This document shows positions 4,711 through 26,978 of a stretch of DNA of 37,395 nucleotides, in pieces. The stretch is from Candidatus Hydrogenedentota bacterium. GTDB lineage: Bacteria > Hydrogenedentota > Hydrogenedentia > Hydrogenedentales > CAITNO01. The stretch's first letter is position 1. Every line of letters begins with the position of its first letter. A program made the translations under genes and the position numbers. The notes beneath the pieces were generated by a model that did no database searches, was not told where the DNA came from, and saw only the letters and a list, made by a program, of their open reading frames with translations. Location of the stretch: contig JAAYJI010000260.1 of the NCBI GenBank assembly GCA_012523015.1, positions 1 through 37,395 of the forward strand, given 5' to 3'.

Positions 4711-4754
4711 TAAAACAGGCATGTACGCTTTCCAAAGGAAAGAATACATGCCTG
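4711..4754 (-). terminator. Strong terminator of the small-peptide unit
   Basis: On the minus strand CAGGCATGTA..CTTTCC pairs with GGAAAG..TACATGCCTG around a 3-base loop, followed by TTTTA. It lies 33 bases after the stop of the second small gene and closes that unit. Confidence 0.8.
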
Positions 4755-4786
4755 ACAGTCGTCAAAAAAGGACTTAATCGGGGCAA

Positions 4787-5014
4787 TCAATAATAGTAGT
4801 TGGTGCCGGTATCCGTATCGGTATCCGTTCCCGTGCCTGTCCCGGTTCCGGTACCGGTGCCTGTGCCGGGAATAATCTTCCAAGCCGCTTGTCTATCGGC
4901 CAGTAGGAGTCGATCAATAACAGCTGTGGTAAATTCCAATTTGATTTGGAAATTACTGATTTGGGCATGCTCCGGCTTTTGAGATACCGGTCTAAGATGT
5001 CTTGATGTACGCAT
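4787..5014 (-). CDS. Small protein with Gly-Thr/Asp-Thr repeat tail (paralogue B)
   Basis: A 75-residue protein of no family I recognise. Residues 1-46 form a basic, leader-like part containing KPEHAQISNFQIKLEF and IDRLLL. After Ile-Ile-Pro come seven Gly-Thr pairs, three Asp-Thr pairs, another Gly-Thr, then Asn and three Tyr to the end. The N-terminal part matches the preceding 42-residue gene: both read PV..KP...Q(L/I)SNF.I..EF followed by (L/I)D(Q/R)L. GAGGGAG lies about 10 bases before the ATG, and the two genes are 18 bases apart, so they are co-transcribed. All four Gly codons are used in the repeat, which argues that the peptide sequence itself is maintained. There is no signal peptide or membrane segment. 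A modified-peptide precursor (leader plus variable core) is one idea, but no maturation enzyme is adjacent. It could also be a structural or regulatory peptide. Confidence 0.65.
   Translation of the reverse strand: MRTSRHLRPVSQKPEHAQISNFQIKLEFTTAVIDRLLLADRQAAWKIIPGTGTGTGTGTGTGTDTDTDTGTNYYY
4802..4867 (-). repeat. Hexanucleotide coding repeat (GGNACN / GATACN)
   Basis: Eleven in-frame 6-base units encode seven Gly-Thr, three Asp-Thr and one Gly-Thr. Third codon positions vary (GGA, GGC, GGG, GGT; ACA, ACC, ACG). This is unlike a recently expanded microsatellite, where units would be identical. Confidence 0.85.
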
Positions 5015-5032
5015 TATTGTTTCACTCCCTCT

Positions 5033-5161
5033 TTATCGGGTTAAAATGAAAATGAACTCAATCAACTGATCCAATGAATTAAGCAGGAATTCTTTCCAAA
5101 TATAAAAATTGGAGAGTTGCGACAGGGCCGGCTTCCGCGTTACCGGTTTATGATGCTTCAT
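5033..5161 (-). CDS. Small protein, 42 aa (paralogue A)
   Basis: Begins MKHHKPVTRKPALSQLSNF and ends in a hydrophobic LIEFIFILTR. AGGAG lies 8 bases before the ATG, and a consensus promoter stands about 110 bases upstream. Residues 5-33 match the N-terminus of the next gene, with KP, Q-(L/I)-SNF, EF and (L/I)-D-(Q/R)-L in the same order and spacing apart from one or two residues. The two diverge completely after that: this one stops after a short hydrophobic tail, the other carries the Gly-Thr repeat. The shared start, separate ribosome sites and common transcript support both as real genes produced by duplication. Function unknown; the hydrophobic end could contact a membrane or a partner protein. 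Confidence 0.6.
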   Translation of the reverse strand: MKHHKPVTRKPALSQLSNFYIWKEFLLNSLDQLIEFIFILTR

Positions 5162-5266
5162 TTTTATTCTCCTGACCGAGTTAATGCCTTTTGTATCGAT
5201 CACAGGTCACAATTTATATTCCAACAACCTGCCCAGACCTAGGCAACACCACTTTATTATGCAGTA

Positions 5267-5295
5267 TTAATACCACAAATGCAAGTTTTTGTCAA
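5267..5295 (-). promoter_or_regulatory. Sigma70-type promoter for the small-peptide unit
   Basis: On the minus strand a perfect TTGACA (5295-5290) is followed after 17 bases by TATTAA (5272-5267). The transcript would have a leader of about 100 bases before paralogue A. It lies just after the end of pckG and reads away from it in the same direction, so the unit need not depend on pckG transcription. Confidence 0.6.
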
Positions 5296-5373: not shown

Positions 5374-7260
5374 CTATTCCGCTACAGGCAACGAAAAGGG
5401 CGAGATGTAGGGGCCAAATTCTTTTTCAGCAGCCACTAAGCGATCCCGTTGTTCGTTCAAGATTTTGAAAAGGAGTTCCGGACCGTCAAAGACTTGCTCG
5501 TGATGAAACTTCATCACACGATCCAGCTTGTCCAGATTCTCTTGGATGCGAATCGTGAATTGTTCCTCATAAGCTTCACGGGTGTATTCTTTGTTTAGCA
5601 CTTCTTTAAAGAGCTCTTTCAAATCTTCATAGCACGGGATCATGCCCGTGGGTGCTTTCAGCGCGCACACTTCATTGTGGACACGCCGTTCCATCCATTT
5701 CACCCAAATATGTTTGTCGCGCACACCATTGACAAATTTTCCCTCTTTGTTGCGTAAGAAATAGTTAACACCAAAGATTAAGGGCGGGCGCTCTACTTTT
5801 GTTCCAAAATCTAAATTATTTTTAATGTATTGCCCCAAAGGAATGGCGACAAAATCCTGAATACTCATGAGGTTAATTTCAGGCACCCCTTCTTTGCCTA
5901 TGGTAGCGAAAGTGGTCTCTGTCTCAAGGCTGGCGCCATAGGCGATAATACCATGTTCCCAACTGAAGGCTTGCTGACAGGGTACATACGCCAGAGCGTC
6001 GCGGCCGCCGTACATGATTCCCGACAGCTCGACGCCACAGGGGTTTTCCAATTCCTTGTCGCAGTTTTGCAGGGCACGCAGGGAAATGGCATAGCGCGCA
6101 TTTTTGTGGGCCAATGGAATTTCCGCCCCTTCTTGGTCTTTCTTTCCTTTGTACCATTGTCCGACGAAAGTCTCGCCGTCATCGGGCGTTTCCCTATCCA
6201 TACCCAGCCAATAAGGTTTTCCGTCTTTGACCAAGACGTTGGAGAAAATCACTTCACCCGGTTTGTTGAGGGCATCCCAAATAATGGGGTCATCTTTTTC
6301 CGTTACGTTTTGGATAATACCAAAAATACCGGCTTCTGCATTTACTGCCATACATTTGCCATCAATCGCTCTGAAGAATGCGATGTCATCGCCCACAATG
6401 CTTTCACCGGGCAACATGGCCGTGGAGGTCTTTCCGCAGGCACTTGGGAAGGCACCGGCAAAATACGTTTTGCGTTCGTTTTTGCCGTGAACGCCCATGA
6501 GGAACATGTGTTCTGCAAGCCAGCCTTCGCGACTCGCTTTTTGAATGGTTAAACGGAGCGCAAGCTTTTTAAGTCCCACCGTATTGCCCGCATATTGGGT
6601 ATTGACGGAATAGACGATATCCGTTGTGTGATCAATATAAATCCGCTTCTTATCGACCTCTGCGCTGACTTTGCGATCATCGACTTTACCGCTTGAATGG
6701 AGTGTCGCGAAAAACCGGGCATCTTTGCCGAGACGTTTAAATTCGTTAAAACCGGGGCGGTATAACAGATCCAGAGAATGAGAGACGTAGAATGAATCGG
6801 TGCATTCCACGCAAGGGATGCTGAAATCTGAAGCATTCGGTCCAAGCGCCATAAAGCGCACAACCATAATACGCCCACGCATAGAATCTTTTAACAGTTC
6901 GCGAATTTCTTCAAGCCCTTCTTCGCGGTCAATTTGGTTCAATGCCTTACTTAGCGACTTCCCTTCAGGCACAAGATACTTCGTTACTTCACGGTCTCGT
7001 CCTTGATCTTGGGGACCATCAAAGTGAATGGTATGGCCATCAATGCACAGGGAACGTTCTTCACCGATTTTTTGTGCCATCTCACGGGTATAAGCAATAT
7101 CTTCTTCTTCGTCAGTGCTCACCCATACGGAATCCGGGGCACACAGCTCAACGGAATCCGCCAAGAATTGAAAAAGCGCCTCGTTATTCAAAGACTCAAT
7201 CAATGAAGAATTGCGTTCATCAAGCATGGCTCGTAATTTTTCAAGATTTGAATTACTCAT
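5374..7260 (-). CDS. pckG: Phosphoenolpyruvate carboxykinase (GTP)
   Basis: A 628-residue cytosolic enzyme that interconverts oxaloacetate and GTP with PEP, GDP and CO2, a control point between the TCA cycle and gluconeogenesis. GTP-type signatures are clear: the P-loop with its reactive Cys, AFPSACGKTSTAML, near residues 271-285, GDDIAFF near 291-297, and the conserved C-terminal FGVNYFLRNKEGKF region. Length is usual for the GTP class (about 600-630) and larger than ATP-type enzymes. A TTG two codons upstream would also open the frame, but AAAGGA is correctly spaced (8 bases) from the ATG at 7260 and too close to the TTG. No partner gene is adjacent; the gene ends in TAG. Confidence 0.96.
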   Translation of the reverse strand: MSNSNLEKLRAMLDERNSSLIESLNNEALFQFLADSVELCAPDSVWVSTDEEEDIAYTREMAQKIGEERSLCIDGHTIHFDGPQDQGRDREVTKYLVPEGKSLSKALNQIDREEGLEEIRELLKDSMRGRIMVVRFMALGPNASDFSIPCVECTDSFYVSHSLDLLYRPGFNEFKRLGKDARFFATLHSSGKVDDRKVSAEVDKKRIYIDHTTDIVYSVNTQYAGNTVGLKKLALRLTIQKASREGWLAEHMFLMGVHGKNERKTYFAGAFPSACGKTSTAMLPGESIVGDDIAFFRAIDGKCMAVNAEAGIFGIIQNVTEKDDPIIWDALNKPGEVIFSNVLVKDGKPYWLGMDRETPDDGETFVGQWYKGKKDQEGAEIPLAHKNARYAISLRALQNCDKELENPCGVELSGIMYGGRDALAYVPCQQAFSWEHGIIAYGASLETETTFATIGKEGVPEINLMSIQDFVAIPLGQYIKNNLDFGTKVERPPLIFGVNYFLRNKEGKFVNGVRDKHIWVKWMERRVHNEVCALKAPTGMIPCYEDLKELFKEVLNKEYTREAYEEQFTIRIQENLDKLDRVMKFHHEQVFDGPELLFKILNEQRDRLVAAEKEFGPYISPFSLPVAE

Positions 7261-7794
7261 CTTCAATTTCCTTTACAACGATAAATTTGTAGGCAATGCT
7301 TTTTGTCCGGCTGCTTTATGGCATAAAAAACTTTCACGGGACAGCATCGCCGAATATGTTCGTCAGACAGTACTGCTGCTTAAGGGGCGGCACTTTTTAC
7401 GCACTAATCTGTATGTACAAACTTATTGCCTGACCGCCTTATCAATTATTAAATGATGTTTGCAGCGTTGTGCTGTTACTTCGTTCTCGACCGGAAATTT
7501 TGCCTAGGTACCTACGAATCCAATGCGTACAGTTCAGGGAGGCATACACTTCAATTAGTTCCCATTTTACAAGACCATGGTTCAGACGGAGGGATAGGGC
7601 AAAAGCTTCACTTCCGGTAGCTCAGCCTTTATTTAGCAGTGGAGTATATAGAAAAAGGCTATTGTTTTTCAACTTTTAGAGATTTTAAGCCGAATATTTT
7701 ACAAAACATATCTCTTTGTCCACGGAACAAGCGGCGTCGTTTATGCAATGGAATATACGGATACTTTCCCCGATCCCGGCTTCGGAAAGGCCGG
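7261..7794. other. Gene-free region upstream of pckG
   Basis: No supported gene. ORFs here are short, without ribosome sites or recognisable products. A CCGGTAGCTCAG near 7613 resembles a tRNA 5' part, but no anticodon arm or T-loop follows. Just beyond the stop of the kinase gene the minus strand has a GCCGGC...GCCGG hairpin (about 7776-7798) without a T-run. The pckG promoter must lie here but I could not fix it. Confidence 0.3.
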
Positions 7795-21856: not shown

Positions 21857-24319
21857 TTAAAAACGGTCGCCGCCCCAAGGCACTTCGATGCCCAGGCTCT
21901 TCGGCGAGTCCGAGAGATAATACAATTCGAATTTCATCCAGTCCTGGCCGCCGGGCAAGTCATTGAGATAGATGCGAACGGTATATTCATTTTCGGGCGA
22001 AGGCTGCTCCAATACAAAGGGATGCATGGGCCGAGACTCAATATTCTTAAGAATGACGGTGCCCGATTCTTCAGGCAGTGCCGCAGTTATCTCTGCCACA
22101 TAGGCATGTCCGGCGTCCCATTTTATGGGTATCAGTTTATAGCCGTCACCCTTCACTTCGAGCATATCCTGTCCATCGACCAAAACTTCGAAAAGGCCAA
22201 GCTTTAGGAGATCATCGCTTCGCTCTTTCAAGATCTCTTCATAGCGTTGCTGCTGTTCTGCAATAATGCGTTCCAGTCCCTTTTCGTCAGGCGTCGTTTC
22301 TTGTCTGCGCATCGCCTCTTCCCGATCGTCGAGGAGACGATGAGCGTTATCACGGAGCACATCGACACCGTCCAATTGATACCCGAAATTGGGTGTAGCG
22401 GCGAAAGCGTTGCGCGCAAGGTCAAAGACATTCAAAGATTCTTCCAAGGCATCACGGTTTTTCTCGTTACCCTCATCCCAATAATCGAAAAAGGCAAAGA
22501 CTGTGTCCATATAGTGGAGGTTGGTATTGATCAATCCGAATGTCATGGCGGCACGGTTCGACACGGCAGCAGCCAATTCCTTATCTTCAATGAGCGGACC
22601 TGCCTCTTCGACCCGTTCACGAATTTCCCGTGCAGCGTCCAGTCCCTGTTCCATGGAACGCAAGGTTTCTTTGCGCCAAGGATCACAGCGCAGATACATA
22701 CGCCGTAAAAAGTTTAAATGACCCTCGCCGTTATCAATAGCGGGGTATCCCTCAACGGTAAAAATATTTACGCGCATATTGGTAAAGGAGTTGAAGGAAC
22801 CGTAAGAAATGGGTTCGACATGAAGCCCGTATTTGTACGCGCCTGCGGTGAGCCGGTAGGCGGAAGCCATAATATCGGCAGCTTCCTCGCCGAAGTGAAT
22901 GGCACAGAAATCCCGAGTCACCTCATCCATGGATACATCGCGATCCCACATGAGACGATAGAGCACATAGGCATAAGCGCCTGTGGTGCCCCAGTCATCC
23001 TTGTGCCCTCCTGCGAGGGAGCCCATGCCGCGCACGTTGCTATTGTCGGGCTCCATAAAGGTTTGCAAACCTCTTTGGAAATAGTCTCCGGAAAAGGTGG
23101 GGAAAATATGAGACGGCCTACCCTCATAACAATTCATGGTTTCAAAAAGGACTACCGTGTTATGGGGCGTTTGATTAAAGGTCGCGTTATACGGTTGGAA
23201 CCACCAGCGGTCGCCACGGGTTATTTTTGGCATAAGATAGATATCGTCGGTAGGAATGTCGTCGGTAAAAATGGCGCGAAAGACTTCCGGCTGACAATGG
23301 ATCTCATGTTCACGAAGACCCCACGTAAAATGGAAATAGGTTTTGTTGCATTCTTTCACGACTACATCATGGGTGGCTTTGACGAAGGCATGAAAACGTT
23401 TCGTGTAGGGCCAATCACATTCCGGCGCTTCGCGGGTCAGATCGAAGGGTACATAACGATCCCAAAATCCGGAGATATCATCGTTGCACACACTGATACC
23501 ATCCAATTCAGGAAGCCCTTGGAACAAAAGCCGATACTTTTCCTTGACGGCTTCCCAAAAGGCGGGATCGCAAGGATCTAAGGTAGCATTGACCGCTTCT
23601 AAAAGGGAAGGATGCACGGTGAATTCATTGCTGAAGGCATAAAATTTAATGTGCAGGGCATGAGCATATTCGATGAGTTTCCGTGCCCGTTCACGATGCT
23701 TCTCGTTCTCCTCTCTTTCCGGATCGGCATCCCACGGAATTAAATCAAGCATATTAGGCCCCGCCACCCAATTAAATCCGTAACGCAGCGCACTGCGCAA
23801 TTGTTCTTCAGAGCTGCCTCCGTAGGAATTTCGACCCCATGCGCCGCCCAATCGTATCTCCACAATAGGCTCCCGTAGGGTGTTGATCTCGGGTATGAAA
23901 CGATTAACCCGGAGCCGGTCATAAATCCAATATAAACCATATACATCGGCCTGTATCGATGCCCCGGCAATCACGATGATACGGGCATCTTCACGCTGCA
24001 GCGTTGCGATGGCACAACCTTCCGGATTATCGGGAAGGGCAGGCACTTCAAATCCTTCGCTCTTCAACAACTGGGTAATGGGATTGGCAGGTGATGCGCC
24101 TAAAATGATGCAATTACCTGAGGGGATACCCTGTGTATGGCTGACCCGATCAATGGCGAGATCGAAACCGACGCCGGCTTCACGCAAATCATCGATAGCC
24201 ACCTCTACAGCCAATTCGCCCTCATGCACGTCGGTGGTGACCACTTTCCAAGATTCCACGGCGCCGGCAGAGAAGACCACAAACAAAATCATCAGACAAC
24301 TGAATCCAACAATGCGCAT
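21857..24319 (-). CDS. Secreted GH67/DUF4838-like glycoside hydrolase candidate (paralogue 2)
   Basis: 820 residues with a signal peptide (1-20, ending SAGA). Residues about 21-150 look like the small alpha/beta domain that precedes the barrel in GH67 alpha-glucuronidases and related families: a region ending GNCIILGASPANP, then ADVYGLYWIYDRLRV. A TIM-barrel-like part follows (about 160-480), with conserved acidic stretches NDDISGFWDRYVPF and IFTDDIP and aromatic ones such as RWWFQPYNATFNQ. A helical region (MWDRDVSMDEVTRDFCAIHFG onward) resembles the DUF4838/GH67 barrel end. The last 130 residues form a beta-rich module ending PWGGDRF. It is highly similar along its length to the next gene upstream. 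AGGAAAGGA lies 5 bases before the ATG. A family assignment needs a profile search; substrate and catalytic residues are unknown. Confidence 0.65.
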   Translation of the reverse strand: MRIVGFSCLMILFVVFSAGAVESWKVVTTDVHEGELAVEVAIDDLREAGVGFDLAIDRVSHTQGIPSGNCIILGASPANPITQLLKSEGFEVPALPDNPEGCAIATLQREDARIIVIAGASIQADVYGLYWIYDRLRVNRFIPEINTLREPIVEIRLGGAWGRNSYGGSSEEQLRSALRYGFNWVAGPNMLDLIPWDADPEREENEKHRERARKLIEYAHALHIKFYAFSNEFTVHPSLLEAVNATLDPCDPAFWEAVKEKYRLLFQGLPELDGISVCNDDISGFWDRYVPFDLTREAPECDWPYTKRFHAFVKATHDVVVKECNKTYFHFTWGLREHEIHCQPEVFRAIFTDDIPTDDIYLMPKITRGDRWWFQPYNATFNQTPHNTVVLFETMNCYEGRPSHIFPTFSGDYFQRGLQTFMEPDNSNVRGMGSLAGGHKDDWGTTGAYAYVLYRLMWDRDVSMDEVTRDFCAIHFGEEAADIMASAYRLTAGAYKYGLHVEPISYGSFNSFTNMRVNIFTVEGYPAIDNGEGHLNFLRRMYLRCDPWRKETLRSMEQGLDAAREIRERVEEAGPLIEDKELAAAVSNRAAMTFGLINTNLHYMDTVFAFFDYWDEGNEKNRDALEESLNVFDLARNAFAATPNFGYQLDGVDVLRDNAHRLLDDREEAMRRQETTPDEKGLERIIAEQQQRYEEILKERSDDLLKLGLFEVLVDGQDMLEVKGDGYKLIPIKWDAGHAYVAEITAALPEESGTVILKNIESRPMHPFVLEQPSPENEYTVRIYLNDLPGGQDWMKFELYYLSDSPKSLGIEVPWGGDRF

Positions 24320-24512: not shown

Positions 24513-26978
24513 TCAAAAATGATCGCCTCCCCAAGGCACATCCAAACCGAGCTGCTCCGGCGAATCGGGAAGGAAATACAAATCGAATTTCATAAGCGCC
24601 TGTCCGCCGGGCAAATCATTCAAATAGATACGGACGGTAAAATCGTTGTGCGGGGCAGGCTGTTCCAAGACAAAAGGATGCATGGCCCGTGATTCCAAAT
24701 CTTTGGGAATGACCGTGCCCTGTTGTTTTGGTAAAGGCGAGGTCAGCTCCGCTCGATGCATGGAACCGGCGTCCCATTTTATGGGGATGAGTTTAAAGCT
24801 ATCGCCCTTTATCTCGAGCATATCCTGACCATCAATCATGATCTCAAAAGATCCGAGTTGGATAAGTTCTGCGGCACGCTCTTGCAAGACCTCTTCATAA
24901 CGGTGCTGAAGCTGCGCGATGATTCCTCCCAAGTCCTTTTCGCTTGGTGTTGTCTCTTGGCGGCGCTTGGCTTCCTCACGATCTTCCAAAAGACGATGTC
25001 CATTCTGTCGCAATATATTCACGCCGTCCAATTGATAGCTGAAGTTTGGCGTTGACGCAAAGGCATTACATGCCAAGTCGAAAGCAGTGAGCACTTCTTC
25101 GAGTGTGTGGCGGTCTTTTTCACAGCCGCTATCCCAGTAATCAAAAAATGCGAACATGGTTTCCATATACAGTTTATTCGTATGGATGAGTCCGAAAGTC
25201 ATGGCGGCGCGATTTGACAGCGCGGCTGCCAATTCTTTGTCTTGCATCAAAGGCCCTGCCTCCTCGACCCGTTCACGAATAAAGCGTGCCCCGTCCAAGC
25301 CCTGCTCCAAAGACTGCAGCGTTTCCATTTTCCAAGGTTTACAGCGCCGATAGAGGGTGCGGAGAAAGTCTAAGTGCCCTTTCCCATTGTCGATGGCGGG
25401 CAAGCCCTCCGCCACAAAAACATTTTCCCGCGTTGTAAGGGCAGAATTAAATTGTCCATAGGAAATGGGCTCGACATGAATACCGTATTTATAGGCGCCG
25501 GCCGAACGCAGATAGGCGGCAGCCAGGATCTCTGCCGCCTCAGCGCCAAAATGGATCGCGCAAAAATCACGGGCAACTTCCTCCATGTTCACGTCACGCT
25601 CCCACATGAGGCGAAATATGACATAGCTATAGGCGGCTTCCGTGCCCCAATCGTCCCAGCTGCTTCCGCTTACTGCTGTCATACCGCGCACATTATTGTC
25701 GATGGGATCCGTCACGTATTGCAGTCCGCTTTGATAATAATCTCCAGAAAATGTGGGAAACAGATAGGAGGCTGGATCTTCATAGCAGTTCATTCTTTCA
25801 AAATGTACTATGGTGTTATGAGGGCTTTGATTGAAGGTGGCATTATACGGTTGAAACCACCAGCGGTCCGCCCGTGTAATTTTCGGTATGAGAAAAAACT
25901 TATCGCTTGTTGGAATGTCATCGGTAAAAATGGCGCGGAATACGTCTGGTTGACAATGGACTTCATATTCGCGCAAGCCCCACGTTCGTTGGAAATAGAC
26001 TTTGTCGCACTCCTCCACGACCACCTCGTATACAGCAGCGACCCATTCATGAAAACGTTTGACGTACGACCATTCACATTCAGCTACGTCCCGAGCAAAT
26101 TCGAAGGGCACATAAGGATCCCAAAATCCGGTGATATCGTCGGTCAGAATATGAACCGCATCCAATTCAGGGAGCCCTTGAAAGAGGAGGCGATATTTTT
26201 CTTGGACCACTTCCCGGAACGTGGGGTCACAGGGATTGAGGGATGCATTAAACTTTTCCAATAGGACGGGATGGCAGGTTAAATCGTGGCTGACGACGTA
26301 ATACTTCATGTGCAGGTCATGGGCATAGCGAATCAATTCGCGTTCCTCCTCACGATGTGCCGCGTTTTCGGTCATTTCAGGTTCCGCCGGCCAAGGGATG
26401 AGATCTAACGCGTTGCTGCCGGAAAACCAATTGAAGGTATAGCGCAACGCCGTACGCATGAGCGCTTCAGAATGTTCTTTGGGAGTGAAACGGCCGCGGG
26501 GCAAGCCTGCCCGCACGCTTACAATAGGTTCGCGACGGGTATTGATATGCGGGATGAAATGATTCACGCGCAAACGGTCAAGAATCCAATAGAGTCCGTA
26601 AACATCGGCCGCCACCGATGCGCCTGCAACGATGAGAAGGCGTGCGTCATGACGTTCCACTGTATGAATCGCGTATCCTTCAGGATTCTCCGGAGCTTGC
26701 GGCAGCTGCAGCCCTCCTTCTGCCAACATCTGCGTCGCTTTATTGTTGGCGGCGCTGCCCAAGAGAATGCAATTACCCTCGGGAATCCCTTTTGTATCCG
26801 GAACACCTTCAAAAACGAGATCAAAAGTAGCGCCAATTTCACGCAAGTCAGATAAAGCGACGTGAACCGCCAAATCACCCTCATGTATCTTGCCCGTCAC
26901 CACTTTCCACGTTTCTTCCGCCCCTACGATAGCCTGCAGTGTCAGTGTTAATAAAATCACCCGTATCACAGCGCTCAT
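24513..26978 (-). CDS. Secreted GH67/DUF4838-like glycoside hydrolase candidate (paralogue 1)
   Basis: 821 residues, signal peptide 1-20 (ending VGA), and the same domain order as the 820-residue gene downstream. The paralogues share long near-identical stretches: ADVYGLYWI, KYRLLFQGLPELD, WGLRE, QPYNATFNQ, NRAAMTFGLI and SYQLDGV. They differ most in the N-terminal domain and in the linker near residues 165-180 (AGLPRGRFTPKEHSEALM here). Spacing is 193 bases with no clear terminator, so a two-gene operon from tandem duplication is likely. GGGAAG precedes the ATG. A promoter region with repeated AAAGTATA boxes lies upstream. The proteins are probably exported and act on a polysaccharide; the reaction is not known. 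Confidence 0.65.
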   Translation of the reverse strand: MSAVIRVILLTLTLQAIVGAEETWKVVTGKIHEGDLAVHVALSDLREIGATFDLVFEGVPDTKGIPEGNCILLGSAANNKATQMLAEGGLQLPQAPENPEGYAIHTVERHDARLLIVAGASVAADVYGLYWILDRLRVNHFIPHINTRREPIVSVRAGLPRGRFTPKEHSEALMRTALRYTFNWFSGSNALDLIPWPAEPEMTENAAHREEERELIRYAHDLHMKYYVVSHDLTCHPVLLEKFNASLNPCDPTFREVVQEKYRLLFQGLPELDAVHILTDDITGFWDPYVPFEFARDVAECEWSYVKRFHEWVAAVYEVVVEECDKVYFQRTWGLREYEVHCQPDVFRAIFTDDIPTSDKFFLIPKITRADRWWFQPYNATFNQSPHNTIVHFERMNCYEDPASYLFPTFSGDYYQSGLQYVTDPIDNNVRGMTAVSGSSWDDWGTEAAYSYVIFRLMWERDVNMEEVARDFCAIHFGAEAAEILAAAYLRSAGAYKYGIHVEPISYGQFNSALTTRENVFVAEGLPAIDNGKGHLDFLRTLYRRCKPWKMETLQSLEQGLDGARFIRERVEEAGPLMQDKELAAALSNRAAMTFGLIHTNKLYMETMFAFFDYWDSGCEKDRHTLEEVLTAFDLACNAFASTPNFSYQLDGVNILRQNGHRLLEDREEAKRRQETTPSEKDLGGIIAQLQHRYEEVLQERAAELIQLGSFEIMIDGQDMLEIKGDSFKLIPIKWDAGSMHRAELTSPLPKQQGTVIPKDLESRAMHPFVLEQPAPHNDFTVRIYLNDLPGGQALMKFDLYFLPDSPEQLGLDVPWGGDHF

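Follow-up and report, generated by a model that had tools for sequence, protein, structure and literature searches.

Two short leader-bearing peptide genes conserved across Hydrogenedentota, probable precursors of a RiPP-like system

The window is the whole stretch of DNA analysed, 37,395 nucleotides from a Candidatus Hydrogenedentota bacterium. At one locus on its minus strand, two short genes, here called A and B, lie between a promoter-like sequence and a terminator-like hairpin. The features were as follows, in the direction of reading.

5267..5295 (-): TTGACA-17-TATTAA, sigma-70-like promoter match, by consensus only
5033..5161 (-): peptide gene A, 42 aa, with a leader (residues 1-15, MKHHKPVTRKPALSQ) and a hydrophobic helix (16-41)
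4787..5014 (-): peptide gene B, 75 aa, with a leader (1-18), a helix (16-42), a near-invariant RQxxWK and a disordered Thr/Gly/Asp tail (51-75)
4716..4754 (-): terminator-like hairpin followed by T-rich sequence, MFE -28.8 kcal/mol over a 91-nt stretch, z = -5.08

The full translation of ORF A (window 5161-5033, minus strand) was MKHHKPVTRKPALSQLSNFYIWKEFLLNSLDQLIEFIFILTR. Neither A nor B of the window contained Cys or GG. The sequence-only reading had described two minus-strand genes of 42 and 75 codons, 18 bases apart and each with its own ribosome site. Both were present, with a spacing of 18 nt and an AGGAG/GGGAG-type site ahead of each ORF. The strong terminator it had named corresponded to the hairpin, which had an 11-bp outer stem, a T-rich 3' side and a z of -5.1 and marked the end of the A/B unit. 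In the case of the promoter, TTGACA-N17-TATTAA was found at 5295-5267(-). However, it remained a consensus match and was missing from the list of a simple promoter scanner, which demanded T at the last -10 position.

The genes next to A and B varied among genomes. PEPCK or ABC-F was found upstream, and a kinase-like gene or RsfS/GatBAC downstream. Because the neighbours differed, the A/B pair looked like its own transcription unit, and a functional link to the neighbouring genes was rejected since they are not operonic. The upstream gene was PEP carboxykinase in approximately 12 loci (window 5374-7266(-); also L077, L080, L084, L116 and L117). At this one position, some genomes had the GTP type of the enzyme and others the ATP type, as read from the sequence.

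The N-termini of the two peptides had been reported to align. They shared 16 identical positions, and the A and B profiles were homologous over 35 columns in hhalign (98.8% probability, E = 8e-17). This likeness of sequence was well beyond chance. AlphaFold2 predicted a helix at residues 13-41 of A, with a pLDDT of approximately 94 in mid-helix. For B, a helix at 16-42 and a disordered tail (pLDDT <50) were predicted, with low overall confidence.

Conservation was examined in the genomes of the phylum and beyond. A single-sequence search returned A and B alone in the window's own genome; in its order-mates, B and A lay side by side at one locus per genome. The B profile matched 58/68 Hydrogenedentota genomes and none of approximately 318 genomes outside the phylum. 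An adjacent A/B pair was present in approximately 55 of the 68, which comprised 46 loci, with two A genes added by hand, and 9 divergent pairs. A was usually 41-44 aa and B 54-85 aa, and the gap was 11-46 nt in the 46 loci. A gave a pN/pS of 0.14 against its relatives, and its leader (0.10) was as constrained as its helix. In B, the core gave 0.09 and the Thr/Gly/Asp tail 0.55. These ratios are rough, since synonymous sites were near saturation. The proposed search of related genomes for homologues constrained in reading frame thus gave a positive result. Conservation and pN/pS also excluded chance ORFs. By these comparisons of sequence, A and B are real, conserved genes under purifying selection.

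The shared start was as described in the sequence-only reading. However, the tails, which that reading had called unrelated, were not arbitrary. The helix and tail of A were conserved among the 46 orthologues of the set. In B, LLLxxRQxPWK was nearly invariant, WK was present in 42/46 orthologues, and the only loosely constrained part was the Thr/Gly/Asp stretch. At L088:7998-8204(-), an A homologue carried a long Gly-Thr repeat between leader and helix, which resembled the repeat of the B tail. In the genomes of family f5 (L140-L146), A and B had diverged into longer hydrophobic peptides of approximately 70-95 aa with the leader kept, and the B members retained a P[WY]K motif.

Family libraries were then searched. 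NCBIfam gave no match for A, B or the sister peptides described below, Pfam gave none for A or B above its cut-off, and the PDB gave none for the B profile. A Pfam New_glue match (E 0.04) was discounted, as it fell largely in the Thr/Gly repeat. A phage or defence origin was rejected, with no viral-contig relative, no PADLOC match and no meaningful PHROG. In the literature searched, no such system was described for Hydrogenedentota. The statement that no described family carries this signature therefore held for the libraries and literature searched. On the evidence of sequence, A and B belong to a previously unnamed short-peptide family of Hydrogenedentota.

An HMM of the A/B N-terminus showed that the leader is not confined to these two genes. 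A common leader, MKHxx[VI][ST][RK]xPxx[AS]Q, headed additional small peptides whose hydrophobic helices were different, and these were grouped in clusters, with five at most per cluster. The sister classes were as follows.

Trp-rich class: MKHIKPITxxKADAFTNFxNAVWRAWxDFRYEKKNE
Second class: APEVKLTFLIQVL...NKNPQNP
Third class: LCxNxxSDLQARFCFVL...K
Fourth class: TxGxILxVISQILxVIG...KEA

Lys near the helix end was nearly invariant in these sister peptides. The window's genome had eight leader peptides, consisting of A, B, five on contig C235 and one on contig C52. The leader persisted in the most divergent A/B pairs. Repeated leader copies with different tails, which the sequence-only reading had proposed to look for, were thus found, up to 8 per genome, and a conserved leader with a divergent core or tail is the form of a RiPP precursor.

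In most genomes, the clusters of sister peptides sat directly upstream of an operon beginning with GNAT1. This was the conserved candidate for the maturation machinery that had been proposed as a check. Its order was GNAT1, GNAT2, a CPBP/Rce1-like protease, a DrrA-like ABC ATPase, an ABC permease and a fusion protein, MAT, and it was unchanged across the sampled loci. The ABC proteins were highly conserved. The two stand-alone proteins gave Pfam GNAT matches, so that the cluster contained a GNAT acyltransferase, as clusters of selidamides do. MAT had 610-680 aa. Its profile matched CteB (5WGG), an RRE-rSAM-SPASM maturase, over residues 4-418 including the RRE region (E = 1e-39), and its C-terminus matched RimL-type GNATs. 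Its architecture was thus an RRE, an rSAM-like barrel, a SPASM-like region and a GNAT domain. The SPASM-like cysteines and an N-terminal FCxEC were conserved. The CX3CX2C radical-SAM motif was found in 0/20 MAT sequences, and its loop was missing in the alignment with CteB. MAT was matched in 62/68 Hydrogenedentota genomes. Outside the phylum, only generic SPASM-region matches were seen, and none with the full architecture. In the window's genome, the operon occupied two contigs. C230 carried it from GNAT1 to the beginning of MAT, and C103 carried the remainder of MAT. The C103 piece (L187:3-1607) had an in-frame TAG close to where the contig begins, which may be a sequencing or assembly error or a sign of a broken gene.

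The link between leader and operon was assessed with a leader HMM trained on A and B only, in loci most of which had been chosen by MAT alone. With ≥10 bits required, it picked out 53 small ORFs. Each of them lay on the strand of GNAT1, no more than 2.6 kb upstream of that gene, and the rest of the 253 kb covered by those loci gave no match. Of the controls, reversed ORFs gave 1 match (10.3 bits) and shuffled ORFs gave none. Four genomes (G032, G037, G041 and G044) had no leader peptide of any class and also lacked MAT and GNAT2. This joint absence was essentially that of one clade (f4), perhaps a single event. MAT, whose N-terminal part matched the RRE region of CteB at the level of sequence, was encoded in the operon of the sister peptides. 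A and B lay elsewhere in the genome; among the loci examined, they were never inside the operon. Within the genus of the window, as in its sister genera, no peptide adjoined the operon and the peptides were located elsewhere. There, the operon must act in trans if it serves them.

From these comparisons, A and B are probably precursor peptides, each with a leader, a hydrophobic helix and a hydrophilic tail, and the RiPP-like system to which they belong would be confined to the phylum. The precursor-peptide reading made from the sequence alone gained support from the homologues, the leader copies with varied tails and the candidate operon beside the sister peptides. Counted in favour were the occurrence of A and B throughout the phylum and only there, the homologous N-termini, the adjacency of leader and operon, the unchanged operon order, the match of MAT to CteB, the presence of the operon and eight leader peptides in the window's genome, and the joint absence. 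Several were counted against. The helices of A and B were not more amphipathic than shuffled sequences. Lys near the helix end, present in most precursor members, was lost from the C-terminus of A in several clades including the window's own ("FILTR"). The missing CX3CX2C, the split MAT with its in-frame TAG, the joint absence being essentially that of one clade, and the position of A and B outside the operon also belonged here. Conservation across a whole phylum counted against as well, since RiPP natural products are not usually so widely conserved.

Judging from domain content, the leader would dock on the N-terminal RRE-like domain of MAT. The two stand-alone GNATs and the fused GNAT may acylate the peptide, perhaps at the helix-end Lys, and the CPBP-family membrane protease would cut the leader off near AQ. 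The DrrA-like ABC transporter would send the product to the membrane or outside, and the operon would act on A and B in trans. A broader proposal is put forward only tentatively. It is a near-universal system of the phylum, in which a GNAT-fused rSAM maturase scaffold without radical chemistry receives up to 8 helical peptides, A and B included, delivered by the RRE-bound leader for acylation, trimming and export. The product might be a housekeeping component of the membrane or envelope and not an antibiotic.

The system was compared with known ones. CteA/CteB, a SCIFF (ranthipeptide/sactipeptide) system, was similar in that CteB aligned with MAT residues 4-418, an alignment which took in the N-terminal RRE region as well as the SPASM-like cysteines, and CteB-type enzymes handle a short leader-bearing precursor (PMC8172795). 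However, MAT had no CX3CX2C (20/20) and carried a C-terminal GNAT, A and B had no Cys, and NCBIfam TIGR03974 gave the reference MAT 67 bits against a cut-off of 425 bits. In Bacillus, skfABCEFGH joins a peptide gene, an rSAM/SPASM-family protein, a protease and an ABC ATPase/permease (PMC8172795), and epeXEPAB is a comparable operon (PMC12871923). The Hydrogenedentota operon had the same logic. It differed in having no catalytic radical-SAM motif, three GNAT domains, several peptides per genome and a phylum-wide distribution, and its protease was CPBP/Rce1-like, whereas EpeP is an M50 protease (PMC10885120). Because MAT lacked the radical-SAM cysteines and A and B lacked Cys, the system was not filed under SCIFF or SKF/EPE. 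Selidamides, such as phaeornamide, are GNAT-acylated RiPP lipopeptides (PMC9505594). They were similar in the GNAT enzymes beside leader-bearing precursors and in the conserved helix-end Lys of the sister peptides. The phaeornamide cluster has an NHLP-type leader with LanM and arginase partners (PMC9505594), none of which was seen in the Hydrogenedentota system. Unlike class IIb two-peptide bacteriocins, the leader ended in [AS]Q, with no double-glycine site in the window's A and B.

Three other explanations were weighed against the precursor reading. A and B could be small structural membrane-associated proteins, for instance a pair of subunits in an envelope complex peculiar to the phylum, to which the other leader peptides may also belong. 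The shared N-terminus would then be a signal for insertion, targeting or assembly, and the operon a machine for export or insertion and not for RiPP maturation. The phylum-wide occurrence of one pair per genome under strong purifying selection agreed with this, as did the several different helices kept together, the absence of catalytic radical-SAM cysteines from MAT and the highly conserved ABC proteins. However, MAT still had two marks of a peptide maturase, the RRE region and the SPASM cysteines, the three GNAT domains accompanying the peptides pointed to modification, and the peptides matched no solved or named family. We regard this explanation as rather unlikely.

It was considered improbable that A and B form a two-component pair of the antimicrobial or cannibalism type, in which the ABC transporter would confer immunity on the model of SKF or EPE. 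The set of peptide, rSAM-family protein, membrane protease and ABC transporter paralleled skf and epeXEPAB, and A was predicted to form a hydrophobic helix. However, the pair was conserved in the phylum and not strain-variable, there were up to 8 peptides per genome with A and B far from the operon, and A and B had neither a double-glycine leader nor Cys. It was very improbable that A and B are independent small proteins, whose tie to the operon was lost or never existed and whose common leader reflects only an old duplication. Consistent with independence, they lay apart from the operon, with a promoter-like match and a terminator of their own, and A had lost its C-terminal Lys in the window's clade. 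However, the leader of A was as constrained as its helix and was kept in the most divergent pairs, and the genomes without the operon markers were also without A and B.

Under the precursor reading, leader, substrate peptides and enzymes are all defined for a system conserved through a phylum on which hardly any experimental work exists. Should the rSAM-derived GNAT fusion be active without CX3CX2C, it would represent a peptide maturase put to a new use, and possibly offer a new way of acylating ribosomal peptides. Orphan leader-peptide pairs can lie far from their likely machinery, and genome mining based on clusters misses such pairs. Elsewhere in the window, two clearly paralogous proteins of approximately 820 aa were encoded in tandem (21857-24319 and 24513-26978, minus strand).
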